A DNA stretch of 42,575 nucleotides from a virus: the IMG/VR virus record IMGVR_UViG_3300025286_000033, positions 1-42,575 of that record. The stretch is one strand, 5' to 3'. This document shows, piece after piece, positions 1-15,338 of this stretch (the first letter of the stretch is position 1; every line of letters begins with the position of its first letter). Below the pieces are notes generated by a model. It had not been told where the DNA came from. It did not search any database and saw only the letters and a program-made list of their open reading frames with translations. A program made the translations under genes and the position numbers.

Positions 1-603
1 ATCAAATCGCATAACCTACACTATAAAATAATGGACTTCCAAAAGTTTGAGCCTGAGTTTTTAAAGTCTGAACAAGCTAAACAATTTGGTTGCGATCCTG
101 ACTACAACATATATTCTTTACAACAAAATGTTGTGAACACTAAATTATTACACAAAGATAATATCAGAACTGCAGGTGGTCATATCCATGTTGGATTAAC
201 CGAACCTAATTTTCATCCAATGGCTCGCAGTAGTTTAGTCAAAGGGTGTGATTGGTATATTGGATTACCGCTAACAGTATTAGAGGGAACATCACAAAGA
301 AAATCATTTTATGGTCAGGCAGGTTCATTCAGGCAAAAAGAATATGGAATTGAATATAGAACTCCTAGTAATATATGGTTGAGTAACGATAATATAAAAG
401 CGTGGGTATTTGAACAGATAAAAGCAATGACTTTTGACGTATTACATTATTTACCAAATAATGAACAACCTACACACGAGCGAAGAATAGCAGATGTCGG
501 AGAGGATAATTTTCAAGATATTATTAATTGTGGTCTTGTTGATGATGCTTGGGATTTATGTGAAAATTATGGTATGCATGTACCAACTTTGGGGACTTCA
601 TAG
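1..603 (+). CDS. COOH-NH2 ligase type 2 (amidoligase), 5'-truncated
   Basis: The reading frame is open from the first base, so the ATG at 31 is probably internal and the true start lies outside the window. Seen: RTAGGHIHVG with the paired histidines at about residues 61 and 63 of the visible part, then EYGIEYRTPSNIW near residue 120. The GGHIHxG plus E-x-R-TPS pattern is typical of the phage COOH-NH2 ligase type 2 family, relatives of glutamine synthetase and gamma-glutamylcysteine ligase that form amide bonds from a carboxylate and an amine using ATP. The N-terminal metal and ATP-binding acidic residues expected in the family would be upstream of the window. Its TAG stop overlaps the next gene's GTG by one base. 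It is the first visible member of a seven-gene peptide-ligation island. The substrate is unknown. Confidence 0.75.
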   Translation: MKSHNLHYKIMDFQKFEPEFLKSEQAKQFGCDPDYNIYSLQQNVVNTKLLHKDNIRTAGGHIHVGLTEPNFHPMARSSLVKGCDWYIGLPLTVLEGTSQRKSFYGQAGSFRQKEYGIEYRTPSNIWLSNDNIKAWVFEQIKAMTFDVLHYLPNNEQPTHERRIADVGEDNFQDIINCGLVDDAWDLCENYGMHVPTLGTS

Positions 604-1274
604 TGATTATTACAGAAGACAGGAGAGATTTTAGACAGAGATATAGAACTTGCACTGTATTACTCTACCTAAATGATACAAAACCTAACTTATTTTATGT
701 TGACGATATTGATGAAGATAGAAACAATATTTCAGGTTCAATTATTGGAGATGATAATGAGTGGTTGCCGACTAGACATAGAGTAGAATATATTGAAATT
801 GATTTTAAGTTTCCTAGATTGGGATTATTAAATGCTAAGAAAGGTGTTGTCAGACTATCTAGATTTGCTACACAACAATACAGACAATCTTTTAATGAGA
901 GAGTTGTAAACATAACTCAATTGAATCATGACTTAAAAGAAATATTTAAACTTCCTTTATTTAACTACGAAGATTTAAGAAAACCAAAGTTTATAAGGGA
1001 AGTATTTTTTCCAAGTTATTTCACAGTTAGTGGTGCTATAAGTAGGATTACATCTGGAGACAGATATGCAGGTGCTATATCAAAAGATTTATATGTAAGT
1101 TCTACGTGGAACAGCGAGGGTATTTATCTTGGGTATAAAGATATATTAGTTGGTAAAATGAGAGACAAGTCAATGTACCCAACAGTAGATTTATTTAATG
1201 GAAACAATGACTTAATAGATTTGATACAATTAGAAAATATTCAGATTGGAGGAATGTTAAATGCCCACAGATAA
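603..1274 (+). CDS. unknown protein embedded in the amidoligase island
   Basis: 223 residues starting at GTG 603 (TAGTG overlap with the previous stop; a GGGGA about 8 bases upstream can serve as ribosome-binding site). I do not recognise the family. The sequence is soluble and mixed alpha/beta in character, with no membrane segment and no cysteine-rich motif. The N-terminal part (about 1-95) is acidic and Ile/Tyr-rich. The middle holds a basic patch around KPKFIREVFFPSYF. The C-terminal part has DILVGKMRDKSMYPTVDLF. Its last 14 bases overlap the following amidoligase, so the two products are probably translationally coupled. Position between two amide-bond-forming ligases suggests it is a partner, substrate carrier or specificity subunit of that pathway. 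That is inference from context only. Confidence 0.7.
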   Translation: MIITEDRRDFRQRYRTCTVLLYLNDTKPNLFYVDDIDEDRNNISGSIIGDDNEWLPTRHRVEYIEIDFKFPRLGLLNAKKGVVRLSRFATQQYRQSFNERVVNITQLNHDLKEIFKLPLFNYEDLRKPKFIREVFFPSYFTVSGAISRITSGDRYAGAISKDLYVSSTWNSEGIYLGYKDILVGKMRDKSMYPTVDLFNGNNDLIDLIQLENIQIGGMLNAHR

Positions 1275-2469
1275 CATAGGTTCAATATTCGAAAAAAATA
1301 GAAACGTATTTTCTTATCAGGAGTCTAGTGATTTTGTATTACCAAGATGTATTATTGGTGTAGAAGTTGAGTTAGAAAATATGAAAGAGGCTAGTCATTT
1401 TGTACATAATGGAGTAAATAGAGACTCTGATAATCCATATTTTAGTTTTGACGCGGAAACCAGAGGAATATTTTTTGGTACTGGGTATTGGAATGTAAAG
1501 AATGACGGCAGTTTACGTAATAATGGAGTTGAATTTGTTACTAAGAAGATATTTGGCAAAGATTTAGCTGTAGCCCTGAATGAATTAAATGAATATCTTG
1601 CGGCTATTACTGTACCCAATAGTATTCCATCAGACAGATGTAGCGTACATATACATTTAGATGTTACTGACTTAAATAAAAATGAATACGCTAGACTGCT
1701 TATTGACTATGCTATATTTGAGAATGTGTTATTTAATTATTGTGGTGTACATAGAAAAGAAAATTTATACTGTTTGCCCTTCGCTAGGTCTGATGATTTT
1801 AAACGTACATTATCTAACATACTGACGTCAGTAGAAAAAGACTTGGACTTTAAGAAGCACGTAAATGGTTTTCCTAAATATAGTGCATTAAATTTAAAAG
1901 CTACCTCCACTTATGGCAGTCTAGAATTTAGATTACATGGTGGCACATACGATATAATGCGTGTCAAAGAGTGGATTAATATAATTATGTGTCTGAAGAA
2001 AAATTGTATTGGTAACTCTGCCAATAATTTGCACAGAGAAATATCTAGATTTGGTATTTCAAATTACCTAGAGAAAGTATTTAAGAACTATCATCAAATA
2101 CTAGACTACAATGAATGTGAGTCAGACATAATCGAGGGTATAAGATTAGCACAGGATATTTTACTTTATAACAACATGAAAGAAAGTAGCATAGATTATT
2201 TTAAGAATAACACTGTACTACTACCTAGAGAAACAGACATTGCCGAGCAGGTAGATGAGTACATAATTCCTTACCCATTAAATAAATATATGCAAAGAAT
2301 AGACAGAGATATTGATACACCTCGATTTAGATATACTATGGGAAATTTCTTTAACGATAACATCGGAGATGTACAAGAACATTATGATGATGAAGAAGAT
2401 TACAATGAAGAAGATTATGATGAAGGTCAATATGACGAGAATGATGAATACTATGATGAGGGATTATAA
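1261..2469 (+). CDS. type 1 COOH-NH2 ligase / putative amidoligase with acidic tail
   Basis: 402 residues, ATG preceded by GGAGG about 8 bases upstream. Motifs in order: GVEVELEN at 33-40 (acidic metal/ATP site of the glutamine-synthetase-like fold), NDGSLRNNGVEFVT at 81-94, the SVHIHLDV histidine pair at H130 and H132, and EFRLHGGTYD further on. This is the pattern of the putative amidoligase family related to glutamate-cysteine ligase, which couples a carboxyl group to an amine with ATP hydrolysis. After the catalytic part comes a tail of about 30 residues (about 370-402) made almost entirely of Asp, Glu, Tyr and Asn. This could be a protein-interaction surface or itself a ligation substrate (inference). 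The stop is followed immediately by the amidotransferase start at 2470. Confidence 0.82.
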   Translation: MPTDNIGSIFEKNRNVFSYQESSDFVLPRCIIGVEVELENMKEASHFVHNGVNRDSDNPYFSFDAETRGIFFGTGYWNVKNDGSLRNNGVEFVTKKIFGKDLAVALNELNEYLAAITVPNSIPSDRCSVHIHLDVTDLNKNEYARLLIDYAIFENVLFNYCGVHRKENLYCLPFARSDDFKRTLSNILTSVEKDLDFKKHVNGFPKYSALNLKATSTYGSLEFRLHGGTYDIMRVKEWINIIMCLKKNCIGNSANNLHREISRFGISNYLEKVFKNYHQILDYNECESDIIEGIRLAQDILLYNNMKESSIDYFKNNTVLLPRETDIAEQVDEYIIPYPLNKYMQRIDRDIDTPRFRYTMGNFFNDNIGDVQEHYDDEEDYNEEDYDEGQYDENDEYYDEGL

Positions 2470-3879
2470 ATGTGTGGCATAACAGGCATAATTAATTTAT
2501 CACAATTACAATTTGGGTTGTCAGAGAAAAAGTTATTCAGAGACTTATTGGTAGCCACATCTTTGCGTGGCAAACATTCCACAGGTATGTTTACTGTGCC
2601 AATAGATAATAATAAGACTGTAAGCGTGCTTAAACGAGCTGTGTCCGCAGGACAATTTATAGATACTGAGCAGTTTACAACTATAATGAAAGATTTTAAT
2701 AATTATAAATATGTTATTGGGCATACCAGATACGCTACTACTGGGGAAATCAATGATGACAATGCACACCCGTTTATTTGTAAAAATATAGTATTAGTAC
2801 ACAATGGAAATGTTGGAAACAAGCACGAGATATGTGTGCTAGCTGATAAGAAAGGCACAGATTGTAATGTGGATTCTGAGTCATTGGCTATTGCCTTGAG
2901 TAAAAATTCCATAGAAGATTTTATCCAAAAAGTAGAGGGAGCGTTTACTATTGTGTGGTATGACACTTCAAAGCGTAAGTTACATTTTATCCGCAATACA
3001 GAACGCCCCCTACATTTTGGTATCGTGAAAGATGATGATGTAGTATTATTTGCGTCTGAGGCTGAAGCACTATACTTTGTGGCTAAAAGAAATGAAGTAG
3101 AATTATCTAAGATATTCTCATTAAATGTTGGTACATTATTAACATTCGATAAAGATAGAAAGTTTGAGACTAAGAAAATATATGATGGACAGCAAGTTAG
3201 ACCCACTTATGCACATTATTACAATAATTATTGGGATGATGATTATGGAATGTGTACTCCATACGTTGGTCGTAGACAACAACATAACGTAACCAGAGTA
3301 GATGATTTATTTTCTGATGAAGATGATAACAATCCATTCAAATGTATTGGAATGTGTAAATATGATGAAATAGAATTTACGTATGAATCCTTTGAACCAT
3401 ATAAAAATAATACTCGTGGGTGCTTAATTGGCAGAAGGAATAATTTTCCTCAATATAAAGTTAAGGTTCATAATTATCAGAAACATCTTGCAACAATGGA
3501 AGTTGGTGAGATATGTTCAGGTAGGTTGATATCTATGTCAGAAAATAAAAAATATATGGGGTATATTGATAAGCACACATTGATGTTAGACCCAAGTAGC
3601 ATAATAGAGGTATTTGACGACCTCTATGATGAATACGATGATGTTGTGTGGGATGATGCCCCATGCGATGTATCAGGTCAGAGTTATTTAGTTAATGGTA
3701 AGTACGTTGACTACGAAGTATTTAGAAAAGCTACCGAAGATGGTTGCGAGGTTTGTTCATGTCCAATCAATTCAATAGATGATTATTCAATTTCTTGGAC
3801 TGATACGAATCGTCCGATTTGTCAAGACTGCACCAAAACGGGCGAGTATGATTCACACATTGCAGTTCAACCAAGTTAA
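2470..3879 (+). CDS. class II glutamine amidotransferase with C-terminal Cys-rich knuckle
   Basis: 469 residues. The N-terminus MCGITGIINL places Cys2 as the Ntn nucleophile after Met removal. RGKHSTG, GHTRYATTGE, NAHP and VHNGNVGN follow, the full glutaminase signature of the GlmS/PurF/AsnB type, within roughly residues 1-220. This domain hydrolyses glutamine and delivers ammonia to a partner synthase. No sugar-isomerase, PRTase or asparagine-synthetase domain follows. Instead there is an acidic, Tyr-rich linker and a C-terminal pair CEVC (426-429) and CQDC (451-454) that looks like a zinc knuckle. The acceptor enzyme is therefore presumably a separate protein, most simply one of the neighbouring ligases (inference). 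Starts one base after the amidoligase stop. Confidence 0.88.
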   Translation: MCGITGIINLSQLQFGLSEKKLFRDLLVATSLRGKHSTGMFTVPIDNNKTVSVLKRAVSAGQFIDTEQFTTIMKDFNNYKYVIGHTRYATTGEINDDNAHPFICKNIVLVHNGNVGNKHEICVLADKKGTDCNVDSESLAIALSKNSIEDFIQKVEGAFTIVWYDTSKRKLHFIRNTERPLHFGIVKDDDVVLFASEAEALYFVAKRNEVELSKIFSLNVGTLLTFDKDRKFETKKIYDGQQVRPTYAHYYNNYWDDDYGMCTPYVGRRQQHNVTRVDDLFSDEDDNNPFKCIGMCKYDEIEFTYESFEPYKNNTRGCLIGRRNNFPQYKVKVHNYQKHLATMEVGEICSGRLISMSENKKYMGYIDKHTLMLDPSSIIEVFDDLYDEYDDVVWDDAPCDVSGQSYLVNGKYVDYEVFRKATEDGCEVCSCPINSIDDYSISWTDTNRPICQDCTKTGEYDSHIAVQPS

Positions 3880-3897
3880 TAGTACAGGAGAAATATC

Positions 3898-4401
3898 ATG
3901 CACGACAAAGTAAAATTTACTTTCGCAGATGAAAATGGCGATGTTAAAAAATATTATGTTGGCTACGATTACAGCAAAGCAGGTAGTTGCTGCGGTGGTC
4001 AAGTATTAGCTGACATACATATTGCTGGTTGGAGAGAGACTGGTGGAGAAGGATACTACTCGTCTATGTCTTACAGAAATATTAGTAAAGAACTCAAATT
4101 GGAGGCGTTTACCATACTCAGAGATTATCTAAATGAGGGTGGACACAGGCGTTCTTGGACTGCTGGCATTGTTATATTAATGGATTATGTTAAGATGCGT
4201 GGCAATAATCGTGCAGTATTTGTTACGCGAGAATTTGCTGAGTGGGATGATTGGAATACTGATGGATTAGCTGTTAAGAATCCTAACTCTCCATATCACG
4301 TACAGATGTGGACTAAGTATCTTACCAAAGTTAAGGTTAATCCACATTATCAAGTATGTGAAGTATTAGATGTTACTAATGAGTCATTAGCTAATGCTTA
4401 G
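3898..4401 (+). CDS. unknown protein in the amidoligase island
   Basis: 167 residues with a clear ribosome-binding site (AGGAG) 7-8 bases before ATG. I do not recognise it. The N-terminal third is beta-rich and ends in GSCCGGQVLADIHIAGW. The Cys-Cys-Gly-Gly element could bind metal or act as a thiol centre, but that is speculative. The middle carries SYRNISKELKLEAFTILRDYL, probably a helix, and the C-terminus is aromatic and basic. There is no signal peptide and no membrane segment. Its end overlaps the ATP-grasp gene by 8 bases, so the two are probably translationally coupled. Context makes it a candidate substrate-binding or accessory component of the ligation pathway. Confidence 0.75.
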   Translation: MHDKVKFTFADENGDVKKYYVGYDYSKAGSCCGGQVLADIHIAGWRETGGEGYYSSMSYRNISKELKLEAFTILRDYLNEGGHRRSWTAGIVILMDYVKMRGNNRAVFVTREFAEWDDWNTDGLAVKNPNSPYHVQMWTKYLTKVKVNPHYQVCEVLDVTNESLANA

Positions 4402-5152
4402 ACCTATAATATATCCTTACAAATTACAATCTGAGTCAGCCAAAGCATTATCTAATTCTTTATCTGATTTAAGATGTAAGCGTGTGCGGGAGAATGGTAA
4501 TTATTCACATTACGATAATCATTTAGTTATAAACTGGGGTAACTCGAGATTTCCAAATTGGTGGAATGAAAATATTTACATTGTAAATAATCCTAAGTCT
4601 GTAGCTAAGGCACAGAATAAACACATAGCACTAGAGTGTATGCTAAACAAAGTTCGTATTCCTAGTTTTACTACGTTTAAAGATGTAGCTGAAAGATGGA
4701 TTAAAAAAGATAGGGTAGCAGTTGCTAGAAAATTATTACGAGGTTGCGGAGGACGCGGTATTTACCTAATTGATAATGAGAATGATTTGCCTGAATGTAC
4801 GTTGTATACGAGGTACGTAAAAAAATCTGATGAGTACAGGATACATATTTTTATGGGTACTATCACTTTCATGCAGAAAAAAATGCTGCGTAATGGAAGT
4901 GTTGGTAACAACTTTCAAATACGTAATTATAATAATGGGTGGATATTTGGTAGTAAGAATATAGCTGTACCACAAGATGTTGTGGAACAGGCGTTATTAG
5001 CAGTTGAAGCATTGAATTTAGATTTTGGAGCTGTAGATGTTGGTTGGCAGGCAAGCTCTCAAAAAGCATTTGTTTACGAGGTTAATACTGCACCAGCGTT
5101 AGAAGGAACTACTTTAGATTTATATAGTCAACAGGTACGGAGGTTATTATGA
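4394..5152 (+). CDS. RimK-like ATP-grasp ligase
   Basis: 252 residues. Seen: a pre-ATP-grasp region ending in NNPKSVAKAQNK (66-76), a glycine-rich ATP loop KLLRGCGGRGIYL (113-125), the hinge YTRYVKKSDEYRIHIF (138-153) with conserved Glu and Arg, and the metal site FGAVDVGW (211-218) followed by YEVNTAPALEG (228-238), in which E229 and N231 are expected magnesium ligands. This is the architecture of ATP-grasp carboxylate-amine ligases of the RimK/glutathione-synthetase group, which activate a carboxylate as acyl phosphate and join it to an amine or amino acid. It overlaps the upstream gene by 8 bases and the downstream GGCT-like gene by 4, so it is cotranslated with the island. The peptide or protein target is unknown. 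Confidence 0.88.
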   Translation: MLRPIIYPYKLQSESAKALSNSLSDLRCKRVRENGNYSHYDNHLVINWGNSRFPNWWNENIYIVNNPKSVAKAQNKHIALECMLNKVRIPSFTTFKDVAERWIKKDRVAVARKLLRGCGGRGIYLIDNENDLPECTLYTRYVKKSDEYRIHIFMGTITFMQKKMLRNGSVGNNFQIRNYNNGWIFGSKNIAVPQDVVEQALLAVEALNLDFGAVDVGWQASSQKAFVYEVNTAPALEGTTLDLYSQQVRRLL

Positions 5153-5571
5153 ATAAAATATTTGTGTATGGAACATTGAAACAACACCAACCAAATTTTT
5201 CAATTATTAAAAATGGTATATTTTGTGGTGTAGGAAGATTAGATGAAGCATATCAACTTAGAATGGTAAGTATGGGTTCATTTCCAGCACTTATACCATC
5301 TGGTAAAAGTTCATCTCAGGAAATTATTGGAGAGATATGGAGTGTAGATGATGAGGCTTTCAAAAATGTGGATTATTTAGAAGGATATCCAACTTTTTAT
5401 AAAAGGGAACAATTTACCATATTGGATTCGGCAGATAAGACACACACTTGTTGGGTGTATTTTATACCTGATGAGTTATCTTCTAGAGAATTGAGGAGTG
5501 TAGATAAGGGTACTTGGTATGGTTATGATGACCCTTCATATGGTATAACTGGCACAGATTATAGTGCCTAA
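5149..5571 (+). CDS. gamma-glutamylcyclotransferase-like (AIG2/GGACT family) protein
   Basis: 140 residues, start in an ATGA overlap with the ATP-grasp gene. The N-terminal FVYGTLK (5-11) is the substrate-binding loop of the GGCT-like fold. DYLEGYPTFYKRE (75-87) supplies the expected catalytic glutamate at E78, and GEIWSVDDEAF lies between them. Length is normal for the family. These enzymes cleave gamma-glutamyl or isopeptide-type amines, releasing 5-oxoproline. Placed after two amidoligases, an amidotransferase and an ATP-grasp ligase, it may edit, reverse or trim gamma-linked products made by them (inference). Its 3' end overlaps the primase start by 8 bases, tying the island to the replication genes. 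Confidence 0.87.
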   Translation: MNKIFVYGTLKQHQPNFSIIKNGIFCGVGRLDEAYQLRMVSMGSFPALIPSGKSSSQEIIGEIWSVDDEAFKNVDYLEGYPTFYKREQFTILDSADKTHTCWVYFIPDELSSRELRSVDKGTWYGYDDPSYGITGTDYSA

Positions 5572-6409
5572 TTGTAGAACACAACTTTCACACCTTAATT
5601 CTGAATTAGAAGTAGGAGAAACTACTAGGTCTGTTCAATGTCCTTTTTGTCTTAAACAAAATGGAGATTTTGCTGTAACCAGAACTGAAGATGGATTATT
5701 GTACAAGTGTTTTAGAGTTGCGTGCGATTCTAAGGGATTTATTCCCAGTAACTTAGGAGAATGGAACAGTCGAGAATTTTTACCTTTTAATTCATCGATT
5801 GTTCGTAAGACTGAGGAATACCCTTACGAGTCGCACATTATTAACTTAAATGAAAGTCAAATTTTATATTTACAAAATAAATTTGAACTAACTAATGAAG
5901 AAATTATATTAAATAAAATAAAATGGTGCGACAAAACAGAAAGAATAATATATCCAATATTATCACAAAATGGTAATACAAAAGGGTATGTCTCTCGTTA
6001 CTATAAAGAATTGTCTGGTAAAAAATATGACGGAGTAAAATCTAGGACATATTGGATTAATAGAAGTAATAATTATTACAACGTAAGTTTTCCTTACAGG
6101 AGGGAATATGACGTAAAAAATATATTTATATTGGTAGAAGATATAGTAAGTTCTATAAGAATGGCTAGGTATGAGCAGAGTATAGCATTATTATCTAATT
6201 CAATACCCACTAATGCAATGAGTTTATTGTCTGGAAAAGATGTAATCATTGTATTAGATAATGATGCAATATCCCACGCCTTAAAAATAAAACATCGTTA
6301 TTCTTTATTTTTTAAGTCTTGTCGTGTTATTCCTATAGACAAAGACCCAAAAGATATGAATGATGATGAATTAGTTAAAAAAGTTATTAGCTACGCAAAA
6401 ATAATTTGA
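5564..6409 (+). CDS. DNA primase with zinc ribbon and Toprim core
   Basis: 281 residues from GTG 5564, inside the end of the GGCT-like gene. A zinc ribbon occupies the N-terminus: C26-P-F-C29, then C49 and C54. A Toprim-like segment follows in the C-terminal half, with FILVEDIVSSIRMA giving the acidic residue and VIIVLDNDA giving the DxD pair. The arrangement resembles the primase half of T7 gp4, which makes RNA primers at the fork. Here the helicase half is a separate gene at 6536, so the primase-helicase is split. The internal strand of the Toprim fold is divergent, so activity is inferred from the pattern and context. Confidence 0.8.
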   Translation: MPNCRTQLSHLNSELEVGETTRSVQCPFCLKQNGDFAVTRTEDGLLYKCFRVACDSKGFIPSNLGEWNSREFLPFNSSIVRKTEEYPYESHIINLNESQILYLQNKFELTNEEIILNKIKWCDKTERIIYPILSQNGNTKGYVSRYYKELSGKKYDGVKSRTYWINRSNNYYNVSFPYRREYDVKNIFILVEDIVSSIRMARYEQSIALLSNSIPTNAMSLLSGKDVIIVLDNDAISHALKIKHRYSLFFKSCRVIPIDKDPKDMNDDELVKKVISYAKII

Positions 6410-6535
6410 ACTAATTTTCCTTCCTATAGTCTTACTTATATTATCAATATAAGATATTAATAAATATAAATATATTACATTGTAATTTATTTGTATTATA
6501 TTAATTATATAATATATATCATATAATATAAAATT
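6410..6535 (+). promoter_or_regulatory. AT-rich intergenic region with two inverted repeats (candidate origin or control region)
   Basis: This is the only real break in the plus-strand gene chain. It is almost entirely A and T. It contains a perfect 8-bp inverted repeat CTTATATT-ATC-AATATAAG at 6435-6453 and a 6-bp one ATTACA-T-TGTAAT at 6474-6486. TATAAT occurs at 6508-6513 and 6522-6527, but no convincing -35 box is correctly spaced and such matches are expected in DNA this AT-rich. No T-run follows either repeat, so they are not intrinsic terminators on this strand. No Shine-Dalgarno precedes the helicase ATG. Lying between primase and helicase, the region could be a replication origin or a protein-binding control site. 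Confidence 0.4.
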
Positions 6536-7723
6536 ATGGAATCTAAAATATTATCTTCAATTATTAAAGACAGGGAATCTTTTAACAAGCTCTCGAAACT
6601 AGATGTTAAGGATTCTTTCTCTGAACCCGCTAAGTTCATATACGAAATTATATGCGACTTTTATGACAAAGATACGTCTATATCTTTCGTAGATTTAGAA
6701 CTTATTGAGAAACGTATTGAGAGGGAGCTTCCTAAACAAATAGATTTGTACAGAAATATTCTGAAAACTTTGGATGAAACCACCTCCTCTCCAAATTTAT
6801 TGGAAGAAATTATTGCTCTGAAAAAAGATTTTATTTCGAGAGAACTATCATCATTATTGCTAACGCAAAAACGCACAGGTGTACTTGAACTAATGGAGCA
6901 ATATAAAAATGTGGAAGACTCCGTTGATGATGATGACGAAGATGAAAGTCTGTTGGTTGGTGCTAGTGTGTCTAATGTTGTAGAGTCACTGAGAAATAAA
7001 AATAGAATTAGAATGTGGCCTAAAGCTTTACATGAAGCTACTGGGGGAGCAATACGAGGAAATAATGTACTTGTATTTGGTAGACCAGAAGTTGGAAAGT
7101 CATTGTTTATTATTAATATGGTCGGAGGTCTGTTGCATGATGGCTACAAAGTATTATTTATTGAAAATGAAGACCCAGCCAAATCAACTATGTCTAGGCT
7201 TATTTGTAGACTAGCGGAAAAGCCTATAGTAGATGTTATTGAGAATCCTGATGAGGTCGAGAACGTAGTGAGACAAAGGGGATACGATAATTTAATACTT
7301 AAATCATTATCCCCAGGAACTTTTAGGGATATACAGAGTCTAATTGATCAACACGGGGTTGATGTTGTTGTAATCAACCAACTCCGTAACATTTGGGTAG
7401 GTAAAGAAGGTAGGGTGGAACAGATGGAGATAGCCGCTACATCTGCAAGAAATCTAGCTAAGAAGAATGATATCTTAGTTATTGGAGTTACCCAAGCGGG
7501 AGATTCGGGTACGAATAAACTGCGATTAGAGATGGGTGATATAGATTTCTCAAATACTGGAATGCCTGCCCAAATGGACTTAATTATTGGTGTTGGTTCT
7601 AATGAAGAATACGACAGCAAGTCGTGGAGAATGATTTCTCTACCTAAAAATAAATTAAGCGGAGAGCATTTATATTTTCCAGTATTAATAGATACGAAAA
7701 CTAATAAAATAACGAGCATATAA
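6536..7723 (+). CDS. replicative DNA helicase (DnaB/T7 gp4 helicase type)
   Basis: 395 residues. An N-terminal helical domain (about 1-120) resembles the DnaB N-terminal region and is followed by an acidic linker containing DDDDEDE. The RecA-like motor core has Walker A GRPEVGKS at 182-189, a VLFIENED strand, a Walker B-like VDVVVINQLRN and a late VIGVTQAGDSG sensor strand. It unwinds DNA 5' to 3' ahead of the phage polymerase and should work with the separately encoded primase just upstream. Its stop overlaps the polymerase start (TAATG). Unlike most genes here it has no visible ribosome-binding site; the upstream sequence is nearly pure A/T. Confidence 0.9.
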   Translation: MESKILSSIIKDRESFNKLSKLDVKDSFSEPAKFIYEIICDFYDKDTSISFVDLELIEKRIERELPKQIDLYRNILKTLDETTSSPNLLEEIIALKKDFISRELSSLLLTQKRTGVLELMEQYKNVEDSVDDDDEDESLLVGASVSNVVESLRNKNRIRMWPKALHEATGGAIRGNNVLVFGRPEVGKSLFIINMVGGLLHDGYKVLFIENEDPAKSTMSRLICRLAEKPIVDVIENPDEVENVVRQRGYDNLILKSLSPGTFRDIQSLIDQHGVDVVVINQLRNIWVGKEGRVEQMEIAATSARNLAKKNDILVIGVTQAGDSGTNKLRLEMGDIDFSNTGMPAQMDLIIGVGSNEEYDSKSWRMISLPKNKLSGEHLYFPVLIDTKTNKITSI

Positions 7724-12049: not shown

Positions 12050-12210
12050 ATAACGAGATGGCACATTGTCATGAATGCGGAGAACACGCAGTTATATCTG
12101 TGCTCATGGCTTTTGACATAATCAACAGCCTCTACTTACGTGGGGAGCTTAACTTAAACTACGAGGAAAATGAATATGAGGAAATATGCTACGACCCTGG
12201 TGATTCCTGA
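11983..12210 (+). CDS. small zinc-ribbon protein
   Basis: 75 residues. CFRCGSESEK (first Cys pair at 11 and 14) and AHCHECGEHA supply two C-x2-C knuckles about 18 residues apart, a rubredoxin-like zinc ribbon. The acidic C-terminus is NYEENEYEEICYDPGDS. The start must lie at or before residue 10 because the first knuckle begins at 11, so the 67-base overlap with the resolvase gene is real if this gene is real. Function unknown; possibly a small regulator or nucleic-acid binder. Confidence 0.6.
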   Translation: MDKREEEIYYCFRCGSESEKGLDNEMAHCHECGEHAVISVLMAFDIINSLYLRGELNLNYEENEYEEICYDPGDS

Positions 12211-12985
12211 TGCTCACGATGGTCCTGAATATAATAAGGACAGATTTGAGGCTCTCGGAAACTTCATTGTCGAAAGAAAGCCTGACAATATAGTTCAGAT
12301 AGGAGATTTCATGAACTTAGATTCTATAAATTTCTTTGATACTAATAAGCCTTTGATAAAAGAGGGCAAAAGATTAAAAGATGATATAGATTCAGGTATA
12401 GAAGCTTACGAAAAGATAATGAAACCTATACGTGGCTTGTGGAAAAAGCAAGCTAGATGGAAAACAAAGAAGTATAATCCTAAAAGATACTGGTTGCTTG
12501 GAAACCACGAGCTTAGGACTTGGAGGTATACTCTAGACAAACCTGAACTAAGTGGGTTTATACCCGAGACAGATTTTGTTGGAGCTGGTAAAGATAAGTG
12601 GGATATAATAGAATATAGACACTACGTGTATATTGATGGCACAGCGTTTACACACGCACCGATGAACAGACGAGTTAATCAACCCATAAGTGGGGAGTAT
12701 GTTACTAAGAGAGCTACTGAAACACACGATACATCAATAGTATTTGGACACACACATAGATTTGGTGTTCATACTATGAAAAGAATTAATGGTGATGAGA
12801 CTGTAGCTCCATTAATACAATCTTGTAATGTAGGATGGTATGCAGATTATATGCCTGAATACATGGAAGGAAATGAAGCTACTTGTGATTGGTGGGCAGG
12901 ATTAGTTATGTTAACTCATACAGGTCATGGAACTATTGACATAACTCAGCACTCTATAGATAGAGTTAAAGAGGATTACTTATGA
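12170..12985 (+). CDS. calcineurin-like metallophosphoesterase
   Basis: 271 residues. Metal-site motifs are in the canonical order: VIPDAHDG (D-x-H), IVQIGDFMN (GD), WLLGNHELR (GNHE) and VFGHTHRFG (GHTH). The family hydrolyses phosphomono- or diesters with two metals. Phage members are found near replication and recombination genes, but the substrate cannot be told from the sequence. Two in-frame ATGs (12170, 12176) sit behind GAGGA; either could be used. Overlaps the zinc-ribbon gene by 41 bases and the next gene by 4. Confidence 0.9.
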   Translation: MNMRKYATTLVIPDAHDGPEYNKDRFEALGNFIVERKPDNIVQIGDFMNLDSINFFDTNKPLIKEGKRLKDDIDSGIEAYEKIMKPIRGLWKKQARWKTKKYNPKRYWLLGNHELRTWRYTLDKPELSGFIPETDFVGAGKDKWDIIEYRHYVYIDGTAFTHAPMNRRVNQPISGEYVTKRATETHDTSIVFGHTHRFGVHTMKRINGDETVAPLIQSCNVGWYADYMPEYMEGNEATCDWWAGLVMLTHTGHGTIDITQHSIDRVKEDYL

Positions 12986-13290
12986 ATACCTTTTTGTTGT
13001 TAACAAGTTTAATTGTTAATTCTCCTAGTGTGACTATGGGATTTAATAATATAGACGTGCAGTGCTCACTAAAAGGAGCTATTTTTGGACACTCTTGGCA
13101 GAAACATCAGGAAGGGGAGTCAAAAACTAAAATTATAGAAGATTTAGTTATAAAATTAAATCAGGATGGAGCACCTACAGAATATGTGAGTGTTTGGGTA
13201 GAACAAATGGATGCAGCTTTAAATATACCTGATTACTATTTGATGGTTGGAGAAATAGTTTACCAGTGTTTACTTAACAAAGGAGTATAA
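12982..13290 (+). CDS. unknown protein with hydrophobic N-terminus
   Basis: 102 residues starting in an ATGA overlap. The first 13 residues (MNTFLLLTSLIVN) are hydrophobic, but no positive charge precedes them and no clear cleavage site follows, so a signal peptide is doubtful. Contains IFGHSWQKHQEGESKTKIIEDL and an acidic, helical C-terminal half ending VYQCLLNKGV. Not recognised. Confidence 0.55.
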   Translation: MNTFLLLTSLIVNSPSVTMGFNNIDVQCSLKGAIFGHSWQKHQEGESKTKIIEDLVIKLNQDGAPTEYVSVWVEQMDAALNIPDYYLMVGEIVYQCLLNKGV

Positions 13291-13294
13291 TATT

Positions 13295-13486
13295 ATGACA
13301 GACAACGTAGATCATACGTTTATACCGAGGAGAAGAGCAAGAATCTTTGCAGAAATAAATCATGAGTTTGGCCCAGTAGAAGCTGGGGGTTGGCTTAAAA
13401 ACAACGTCCCTGAAGAAGAACGAGATGAATTATTTCTTAAATATTTAGGAGAGGAATTAAAAAAACATGAACCAATTACCGACTGA
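13295..13486 (+). CDS. small unknown protein
   Basis: 63 residues behind AGGAG (aaaggagtataatattATG). Charged and probably helical, with RRRARIFAEINHEFGP in the first half and EEERDELFLKYLGEELKKHE in the second. Ends 20 bases inside the ribonucleotide reductase gene, which implies coupled translation. No domain recognised. Confidence 0.6.
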   Translation: MTDNVDHTFIPRRRARIFAEINHEFGPVEAGGWLKNNVPEEERDELFLKYLGEELKKHEPITD

Positions 13487-15338
13487 GTATCAACAGTTTA
13501 TACACTTGAGTAGATACGCAAGACATCTTCCTGATAAACAAAGAAGAGAGACTTGGGAGGAAACTGTGGTTAGATATATATCTTTTTTTACTGAGAGATT
13601 TGATAACGAATTTGATTTATCTGAAGTAAAGAAAGCTATACTAAATTTAGAAGTCATGCCATCTATGAGATGTTTAATGACTGCTGGCAAGGCTTTAGAA
13701 AGAGATAATGTAGCTGGATTTAATTGTAGTTATCTTCCCATAGATAACCCACGATCATTTGACGAAATAATGTATATTCTAATGTGTGGCACTGGAGTGG
13801 GATTCAGCGTAGAGAGACAATTTATAAATCAATTACCTCAAGTATCCGAGGAGATACATAATACTAATACTGTAATACACGTAACTGACTCAAAATTGGG
13901 ATGGTCTAGCGCTTACAGAGAGCTTATATCCCTGCTTTATTCTGGCAGGATACCCTCGTGGGACGTTTCAAAAATTCGTCCCGCTGGAGCGAGATTAAAG
14001 ACCTTTGGTGGGCGTTCCTCAGGGCCACAACCATTGGAAGATTTATTTAAGTTTACTGTAAATACTTTTACAAATGCCAAGGGCAGGAAACTTACAAGCA
14101 TAGAGTGTCATGATATATGTTGTAAAGTGGGTGATATAGTCGTAGTAGGGGGAGTAAGGAGATCAGCGCTGATATCTTTATCTAATCTCAGTGATGACAG
14201 AATGAGAATAGCTAAGTCTGGCAATTGGTGGGAATTGAACGGACAAAGGGCGTTAGCTAATAATTCTGCCTGTTACACTGAGACCCCCGATATGGCTCAA
14301 TTTATGTCTGAATGGCAAGCATTATATCTGAGTCACTCAGGAGAACGTGGTATCTTTAACAGAACAGCAGCTAGGAAGTTCTCTCCTGAACGTAGGGATA
14401 TTGATTGGGAATTTGGTACTAACCCATGTTCTGAGATTGTGCTTAGACCTAATCAATTTTGTAACTTATCTGAGGTAATAGTAAGACCTAAAGATACATT
14501 AAAAGATCTGAAGAGAAAGGTAGAGATTGCTACCATAATAGGTACTATGCAGGCTACTTTAACTGACTTCAGATATTTGAGGTCTTCTTGGAAAAAGAAT
14601 ACTGAGGAAGAGGCATTGCTTGGAGTGTCGTTGACTGGCATAATGGATCATCAAACTCTCAGTACTTGCAGAGACATAACTAAGAAATGGCTACGGGAGA
14701 TGAAAGATGTGGCAATCAATACGAATGAAACTTGGGCGCATAAGCTCGGGATTAATCCAAGCAGCGCAATCACTTGCGTCAAACCTAGCGGCACTGTTAG
14801 TCAGCTTACTAATACTGCTAGTGGGATACATCCTCGTCATAATAATTACTATATACGAACAGTACGTCAAGATAACAAAGACCCGTTAACTGCTTTTATG
14901 AAAGAATGTGGATTTCCTAATGAACCAGCATTTGGCAAAGAAGATTCAACAACTATATTTTCTTTTGGATGTAAGAGTCCTAAGGGGGCTGTTACCAGAA
15001 ACCAGAAAACAGCTATAGAACAGTTGGAACATTGGCTAGTATATCAAGAGAATTGGTGTGAACATAAACCATCTATTACTGCTTACGTCAGAGAGCATGA
15101 GTGGATGAAAGTTGGAGCTTGGGTATATGATCACTTCGATGCTATAAGTGGAATATCTTTTCTACCTTACGATGGTGGAACATACAAACAAGCACCATAT
15201 ACTGACTGTACTAAAGAAGAGTATGAAGAAGCGTTAAAGGTTACTCCTAGTGCAGATTGGTCATTCTTGGTTGAAGAACAGGACAACACAAGTAGTTCCC
15301 AACAGCTAGCTTGTACTGGAAACTCATGCGAGATATAA
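13467..15338 (+). CDS. nrdJ: class II (adenosylcobalamin-dependent) monomeric ribonucleotide reductase
   Basis: 623 residues. Signature segments: GFNCSYL (C87), ILMCGTGVGFSVER, WDVSKIRPAGARLKTFGGRSSGP, GGVRRSALISLSN, the finger loop NPCSEI at 319-324 (radical-bearing C321 with N319 and E323), CNLSEV with the second redox cysteine C332, VKPSGTVSQL, and a C-terminal C616-TGNS-C621 pair just before the end that re-reduces the active site. The layout matches monomeric class II RTPR (Lactobacillus leichmannii type, about 740 residues), somewhat shortened. It makes deoxyribonucleotides for phage DNA synthesis without oxygen or a second subunit, but needs host vitamin B12. Overlaps neighbours on both sides. 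Confidence 0.93.
   Translation: MNQLPTEYQQFIHLSRYARHLPDKQRRETWEETVVRYISFFTERFDNEFDLSEVKKAILNLEVMPSMRCLMTAGKALERDNVAGFNCSYLPIDNPRSFDEIMYILMCGTGVGFSVERQFINQLPQVSEEIHNTNTVIHVTDSKLGWSSAYRELISLLYSGRIPSWDVSKIRPAGARLKTFGGRSSGPQPLEDLFKFTVNTFTNAKGRKLTSIECHDICCKVGDIVVVGGVRRSALISLSNLSDDRMRIAKSGNWWELNGQRALANNSACYTETPDMAQFMSEWQALYLSHSGERGIFNRTAARKFSPERRDIDWEFGTNPCSEIVLRPNQFCNLSEVIVRPKDTLKDLKRKVEIATIIGTMQATLTDFRYLRSSWKKNTEEEALLGVSLTGIMDHQTLSTCRDITKKWLREMKDVAINTNETWAHKLGINPSSAITCVKPSGTVSQLTNTASGIHPRHNNYYIRTVRQDNKDPLTAFMKECGFPNEPAFGKEDSTTIFSFGCKSPKGAVTRNQKTAIEQLEHWLVYQENWCEHKPSITAYVREHEWMKVGAWVYDHFDAISGISFLPYDGGTYKQAPYTDCTKEEYEEALKVTPSADWSFLVEEQDNTSSSQQLACTGNSCEI

Follow-up and report, generated by a model that had tools for sequence, protein, structure and literature searches.

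The first part (positions 1-5571) of the viral DNA analysed here (the window, a stretch of 42,575 nt) holds, with a probability of about 75%, a member, intact but for its cut 5′ end, of the phage 'putative peptidoglycan modification module' of the phiEco32/RIO-1/LUZ24 type, whose enzymes would share a general ligation chemistry. It encodes a COOH-NH2 ligase type 2 with an Amidoligase_2 beside it, an ATP-grasp ligase, an Ntn-Cys glutaminase and a gamma-glutamylcyclotransferase (GGCT), in an early position near the primase. This kind of cassette is already known and, in predictions that go back to 2009, serves to couple amino acids, possibly to the host cell wall. What is added here is the near-constant co-inheritance of four of its families (those of ORF1, ORF3, ORF4 and ORF6), the place of ORF2 as a core family, and the presence of GGCT, of a Peptidase_C26/class-I glutaminase-fold hydrolase (C26 hydrolase) or of both in 71 of 75 large loci.

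The novelty implied by the sequence-only reading did not hold up, since the cassette has already been described and named (PMC5498523, PMC11945000, PMC6256558, PMC3890496). A 'peptidoglycan modification' cassette was reported as common to RIO-1, phiEco32, 7-11, PA11, tf, MR299-2, LUZ24, PaP3 and CW02 (PMC5498523) and was described again in two other papers (PMC11945000, PMC6256558), while ORF21-ORF31 of the LUZ24-like phage UFV-P2 match the order of the window from COOH-NH2_lig to the primase (PMC3890496). According to PMC5498523 and PMC11945000, a function for this phage peptide-ligation set was proposed by Iyer 2009 and Hardies 2013; in PMC10580990, the superinfection idea is credited to Iyer et al. 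2009. In the literature searched, neither biochemical nor genetic proof of the product, target or phenotype of the cassette was found, nor any paper on its knock-out.

The genes of the locus, all on the + strand, are as follows.

ORF1, 1..603, + strand: COOH-NH2 ligase type 2 (GCS-like amidoligase), C-terminal 200 aa (PF14395, 2e-13; phrog_3815, 2e-38)
ORF2, 603..1274, + strand: 223-aa core component without annotation, phrog_11055/phrog_4877 family (phrog_11055, 1e-8)
ORF3, 1261..2469, + strand: Amidoligase_2 with an acidic C-terminal tail (PF12224, 1e-10; phrog_7469, 1e-53)
ORF4, 2470..3879, + strand: class-II (Ntn) glutaminase domain followed by a C-terminal part of ~250 aa (GATase_6, 4e-18; phrog_4736, 8e-73)
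ORF5, 3898..4401, + strand: 167-aa protein of close relatives only (found in 9 of them)
ORF6, 4394..5152, + strand: RimK-like ATP-grasp peptide ligase (phrog_2599, 2e-70)
ORF7, 5149..5571, + strand: gamma-glutamylcyclotransferase, GGCT/AIG2 (GGACT, PF06094, 3e-22)
DNA primase, 5564..6409, + strand: context, outside the pathway (phrog_47, 1e-19)

The seven ORFs are tightly packed, five of their six internal junctions being overlapping or abutting. ORF1 and ORF2 have one base in common (TAG at 601-603, GTG at 603-605), ORF2 and ORF3 overlap by 14 nt, ORF3 abuts ORF4 (TAAATG), ORF5 and ORF6 overlap by 8 nt and ORF6 and ORF7 by 4 nt; the sixth junction, between ORF4 and ORF5, is a gap of 18 nt that contains AGGAG. 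ORF7 in turn overlaps the primase by 8 nt (5564-5571); the position at the primase is the same in close relatives and in UFV-P2. Coordinates and junctions thus confirm the claim of seven coupled + strand ORFs ahead of the primase, and independent libraries (Pfam, PHROGs) agree with the five enzyme families named; as a seven-gene enzyme set, the claim stands for these five, ORF2 and ORF5 having no enzyme assignment. In the 42.6 kb virus record, + strand genes reach position 15338 and comprise the cassette, primase, DnaB-like helicase, DNA polymerase A, exonuclease, endonuclease, metallophosphoesterase and ribonucleotide reductase, whereas head and packaging genes lie on the - strand, so the cassette heads the early/replication block. 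The end of this block (12170-15338) holds the metallophosphoesterase (phrog_221) and the ribonucleotide reductase (phrog_367). The early infection function that had been suggested is probable and is supported from a relative, Pseudoalteromonas phage PSA-HP1, in which homologous genes are transcribed immediately on infection (PMC7082346); immediate-early transcription in the window would hold by analogy.

Likeness to the modules of phiRIO-1/PSA-HP1, LUZ24, PaP3, tf, PA11, CW02, phiEco32 and 7-11 extends to the five enzymes, to their grouping in one early operon and to the adjoining primase; an ORF2-type protein between the ligases is likewise common to the window and the phiRIO-1/LUZ24/phiEco32-type module. 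The relationship is distant, with protein identities of at most ~40% to these modules (the top value in the phage collection being about 40%) and zero DNA-level matches in that collection when the first 8 kb was compared by blastn. Unlike the named modules, the window has the additional lineage-specific ORF5, and no C26 hydrolase was seen in it or in its close relatives. The order COOH-NH2_lig, a protein of ~190 aa (size in UFV-P2), Amidoligase_2, GATase, ATP-grasp, AIG2/GGCT, primase is the same in UFV-P2, although there it is interrupted by an HNH endonuclease and small ORFs. Primase and helicase form one protein in UFV-P2 but are separate genes in the window (5564-7723), where the helicase is DnaB-like; a fused primase/helicase follows the cassette in many relatives.

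The enzymes of the cassette are presumably active, judging from the key residues that their sequences retain. Motif conservation was scored over 134-144 non-redundant viral loci (70 for GGCT), and the residues cited as intact in the five enzymes proved conserved at 98-100%, which implies strong constraint. HxH and ExR are conserved at 98-100% in both amidoligase families (ORF1 and ORF3), and GxExE, HxH and ExR at 100% in that of ORF3; the same 100% applies to Cys2, R87, N112-G113 and D135 of the glutaminase (ORF4), to ExR of the ATP-grasp ligase (ORF6), whose ExN residues E229 and N231 reach 100 and 99%, and to YG and E78 of GGCT (ORF7). The 5′ end of ORF1 is missing, as the record starts inside the gene; a complete version (279 aa, L002:3119-3958), with the expected N-terminal G-x-D-x-E stretch, is present in a relative, L002, that is 100% identical to the window at ORF3 and ORF6. 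Compared with PDB sequences, the ORF1 and ORF3 profiles gave no meaningful match, while the ORF6 profile matched alpha-L-glutamate ligase, D-Ala-D-Ala ligase and RimK chains (7qys, 5zct, 4iwx) in an alignment confined to the C-terminal lobe, so that ORF6 is by sequence only a remote relative of characterised ligases. With RimK/alpha-L-glutamate ligases it has in common the ATP-grasp C-terminal lobe with ExR and ExN, and its specificity is not predictable from an alignment of this lobe only. Assignment of ORF6 to the R2K clade of ATP-grasp enzymes (R2K_2, PF18299) was rejected at 16.0 bits against a curated cutoff of 26.2, in favour of RimK-like/phrog_2599. Two terminal regions deserve mention. 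The tail of ORF3 (2371-2466) is strongly acidic and tyrosine-rich, is kept in close relatives and missing from the shorter Zobellviridae homologues, and could be substrate-like or disordered. The C-terminal end of ORF4 (3730-3870) has a zinc-ribbon-like pattern of paired cysteines (CEVCSC...CQDC), which may be absent from the L003 homologue, a protein ~90 aa shorter.

The families of ORF1, ORF3, ORF4 and ORF6 travel together with almost no exceptions and in shuffled orders. They have homologues in 315, 340, 338 and 310 phage records, respectively, with near-identical host breakdowns (Pseudomonas 119-121, Escherichia 92-93, Vibrio 22), and the same gene set is seen in the annotated neighbourhoods of ten phages (Zobellviridae, Grimontviridae and other groups). 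Viral contig scans seeded with three different members yielded 144 non-redundant loci for comparison, among which the ORF6 family is present in 138, ORF4 in 136, ORF1 in 134, ORF2 in 118 and GGCT in 70. When both flanks are complete, all four families occur in 23/23 loci found with the ORF1 seed, in 25/25 with the ORF3 seed and in 23/25 with the ORF6 seed, the other two being without ORF1; with loci ranked by how similar they are to the queries, more distant reduced sets are under-represented. Gene orders vary (e.g. O4-O1-O2-O3-O6, O1-O2-O3-O4-O6-O7 and O7-O6-C26-O1-O4-O3), so that recent inheritance of one arrangement from a common ancestor does not by itself explain the linkage. Loss of individual members, which if frequent would have counted against a functional set, is common for some genes only: the four core enzymes are mostly retained, whereas roughly half of the loci have no GGCT and ORF5 is specific to its lineage. 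The full set appears dispensable in some phages, because 14 records of Arthrobacter phages match ORF3 and ORF4 and are absent from the ORF6 matches listed, and OM43 phages are reported with apparently amidoligase and glutaminase only (PMC10580990). The cassette looks phage-exclusive, since cellular genomes (one per species, 84,980 species) gave only seven loci, all in metagenome-assembled genomes. In five of these loci, helicase or primase genes of phage type adjoin the cassette, and in the other two none is seen on a short stretch; the reach of the pattern scan is limited to relatives in which the chosen motifs are retained. The contigs concerned (L248-L254) were binned with Colwellia, Crocinitomix, Dojkabacteria and other genomes, and most resemble phage contigs.

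ORF2, which the sequence-only reading had not recognised as such, is a core component of the cassette by the criterion of sequence profiles. An ORF2-type protein of ~180-230 aa lies between the ORF1 and ORF3 homologues in most gene orders. A profile seeded with 13 positional homologues and run on 12,616 ORFs recovers 175 of the 179 positional candidates, as well as 7/7 loci fetched later from another collection. Profiles of the window's group and of the Zobellviridae group match each other (E 7e-5) and both lead to phrog_11055 in PHROGs, the phiEco32-like versions leading to phrog_4877. The AlphaFold (AF2) model is that of a confident alpha/beta protein (pLDDT 94.4). Foldseek against the PDB gave no full-length match and none better than E 0.09, only matches of ~60 residues to Sm/SH3-like barrels at E about 0.1, and since these are short and weak the fold is given no functional reading; the ORF2 profile, run against PDB sequences, returned nothing up to E = 1. 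Against a viral library, Foldseek gave 11 significant matches, the CW02 homologue among them. ORF2 was undetected in about 17 non-redundant loci of rearranged order, most of which have longer ORF3 and ORF4 proteins, and a check for fusion found zero similarity of the ORF2 profile to the longer amidoligase and glutaminase of such loci. Those of the L077 type (L077, L084, L085, L049, L070, L072 and similar) form a lineage that encodes, in this order, GGCT, ATP-grasp, C26, COOH-NH2 ligase, glutaminase and amidoligase, the last with an N-terminal extension of ~190 aa, about the size of ORF2. ORF5 (3898-4401) has a conserved GSCCG motif and sits between the glutaminase and ATP-grasp genes in nine close relatives; it had zero matches in 50,697 phage records, and its AF2 model is of low confidence (pLDDT 48.8).

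Characterised members of the GGCT and C26-type families act on gamma-glutamyl bonds. The C26 hydrolase is present in 83 of the 144 loci; in the 75 loci that span 18 kb or more, GGCT stands alone in 24, C26 stands alone in 29, the two occur together in 18 and 4 lack both, and one or both are found in all ten named phage genomes and in the window. The apparent complementarity of the two enzymes (Fisher p = 8e-5) is not independent of phylogeny, and in phylogenetically independent pairs, which are too few, it is not significant. As nearly all large loci carry one or the other, the pathway is most simply read as one dealing with gamma-glutamyl bonds, and on balance gamma-glutamyl chemistry is considered probable.

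A working mechanism can be proposed. At an early stage of infection, each of the three ligases (two GCS-fold amidoligases and one RimK-like ATP-grasp enzyme) would use ATP to activate a carboxylate, which would then be coupled to an amine; the class-II glutaminase would either supply ammonia or cleave a gamma-amide. ORF2 would partner the two amidoligases without catalytic activity of its own. GGCT would trim or recycle gamma-glutamyl intermediates, a C26-type gamma-glutamyl hydrolase replacing or joining it in many phages. With such an enzyme set, including GGCT/C26, the likeliest product would be a gamma-glutamyl-linked peptide or amide. It would most plausibly be attached to precursors of peptidoglycan, an alteration of the infected cell directed against superinfecting phages. 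Peptidoglycan is the leading proposal for the target, predicted at slightly under even odds, and protection against superinfection is a tentative prediction for the purpose.

Two live rivals compete with the cell wall as target. In glutathione synthesis and turnover (GshA, GshB and GGCT), a GCS-fold ligase is followed by an ATP-grasp ligase, and GGCT cleaves the gamma-glutamyl bond. The cassette mirrors these steps, and the GGCT/C26-type hydrolases of 71/75 loci would also suit a soluble, glutathione-like gamma-glutamyl peptide serving redox, nitrogen economy or counter-defence; a nitrogen/amino-acid role has been proposed for a phage with four of the families (PMC10945688). The likeness is a mechanistic analogy, and a glutathione-like path needs two ligases, whereas three ligases (including a second GCS-fold enzyme), a class-II glutaminase and ORF2 are found here. 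Nor was a recurring transporter or reductase noticed next to the cassette among the neighbours conserved in the 144 loci, and a soluble compound is judged rather unlikely. Protein tagging at the onset of infection, in which the RimK-like ligase and the amidoligases would add glutamyl or other residues to a host ribosomal or transcription protein, is unlikely as well: tagging of the RimK type needs one ligase only, and the neighbours include no conserved acceptor, with the possible exception of ORF2, the C-terminus of which is unconserved in alignments. It would nevertheless agree with the match of the ORF6 profile to alpha-L-glutamate ligase and RimK chains, with the ExR of ORF6, a motif described as typical of ATP-grasp enzymes catalysing peptide-like bond formation (PMC4431377), and with the early expression of the PSA-HP1 homologues (PMC7082346).

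Two further readings carry much less weight. The ORF2 family might be an acceptor or scaffold carrying a gamma-glutamyl peptide built by the amidoligases and the ATP-grasp ligase, the product being a protein-borne conjugate with no change to the cell wall; this idea, modelled on the amino-group carrier protein of lysine biosynthesis, is quite improbable. The DNA-linked amide that had been suggested earlier, i.e. hypermodification of phage bases by amide-linked amino acids, is very improbable. It draws on the overlap of the cassette with the primase and on the recurrent adjacency of primase/helicase genes, but early genes commonly adjoin replication genes. It found no supporting enzyme, as the thymidylate synthase/hydroxymethylase family (PF00303), the only base-modification route covered, is absent from the 11 records considered (the window and ten relatives).

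The preferred reading therefore remains a peptide-ligation module with the cell wall as its leading, predicted target. Hundreds of phage records contain the cassette, some of them from phages that infect E. coli and P. aeruginosa and can be grown in an ordinary laboratory, and in the literature searched its product is a prediction only. The core protein ORF2 and a near-universal gamma-glutamyl-cleaving enzyme in large loci sharpen the vague label of 'peptide modification' that the cassette has borne.
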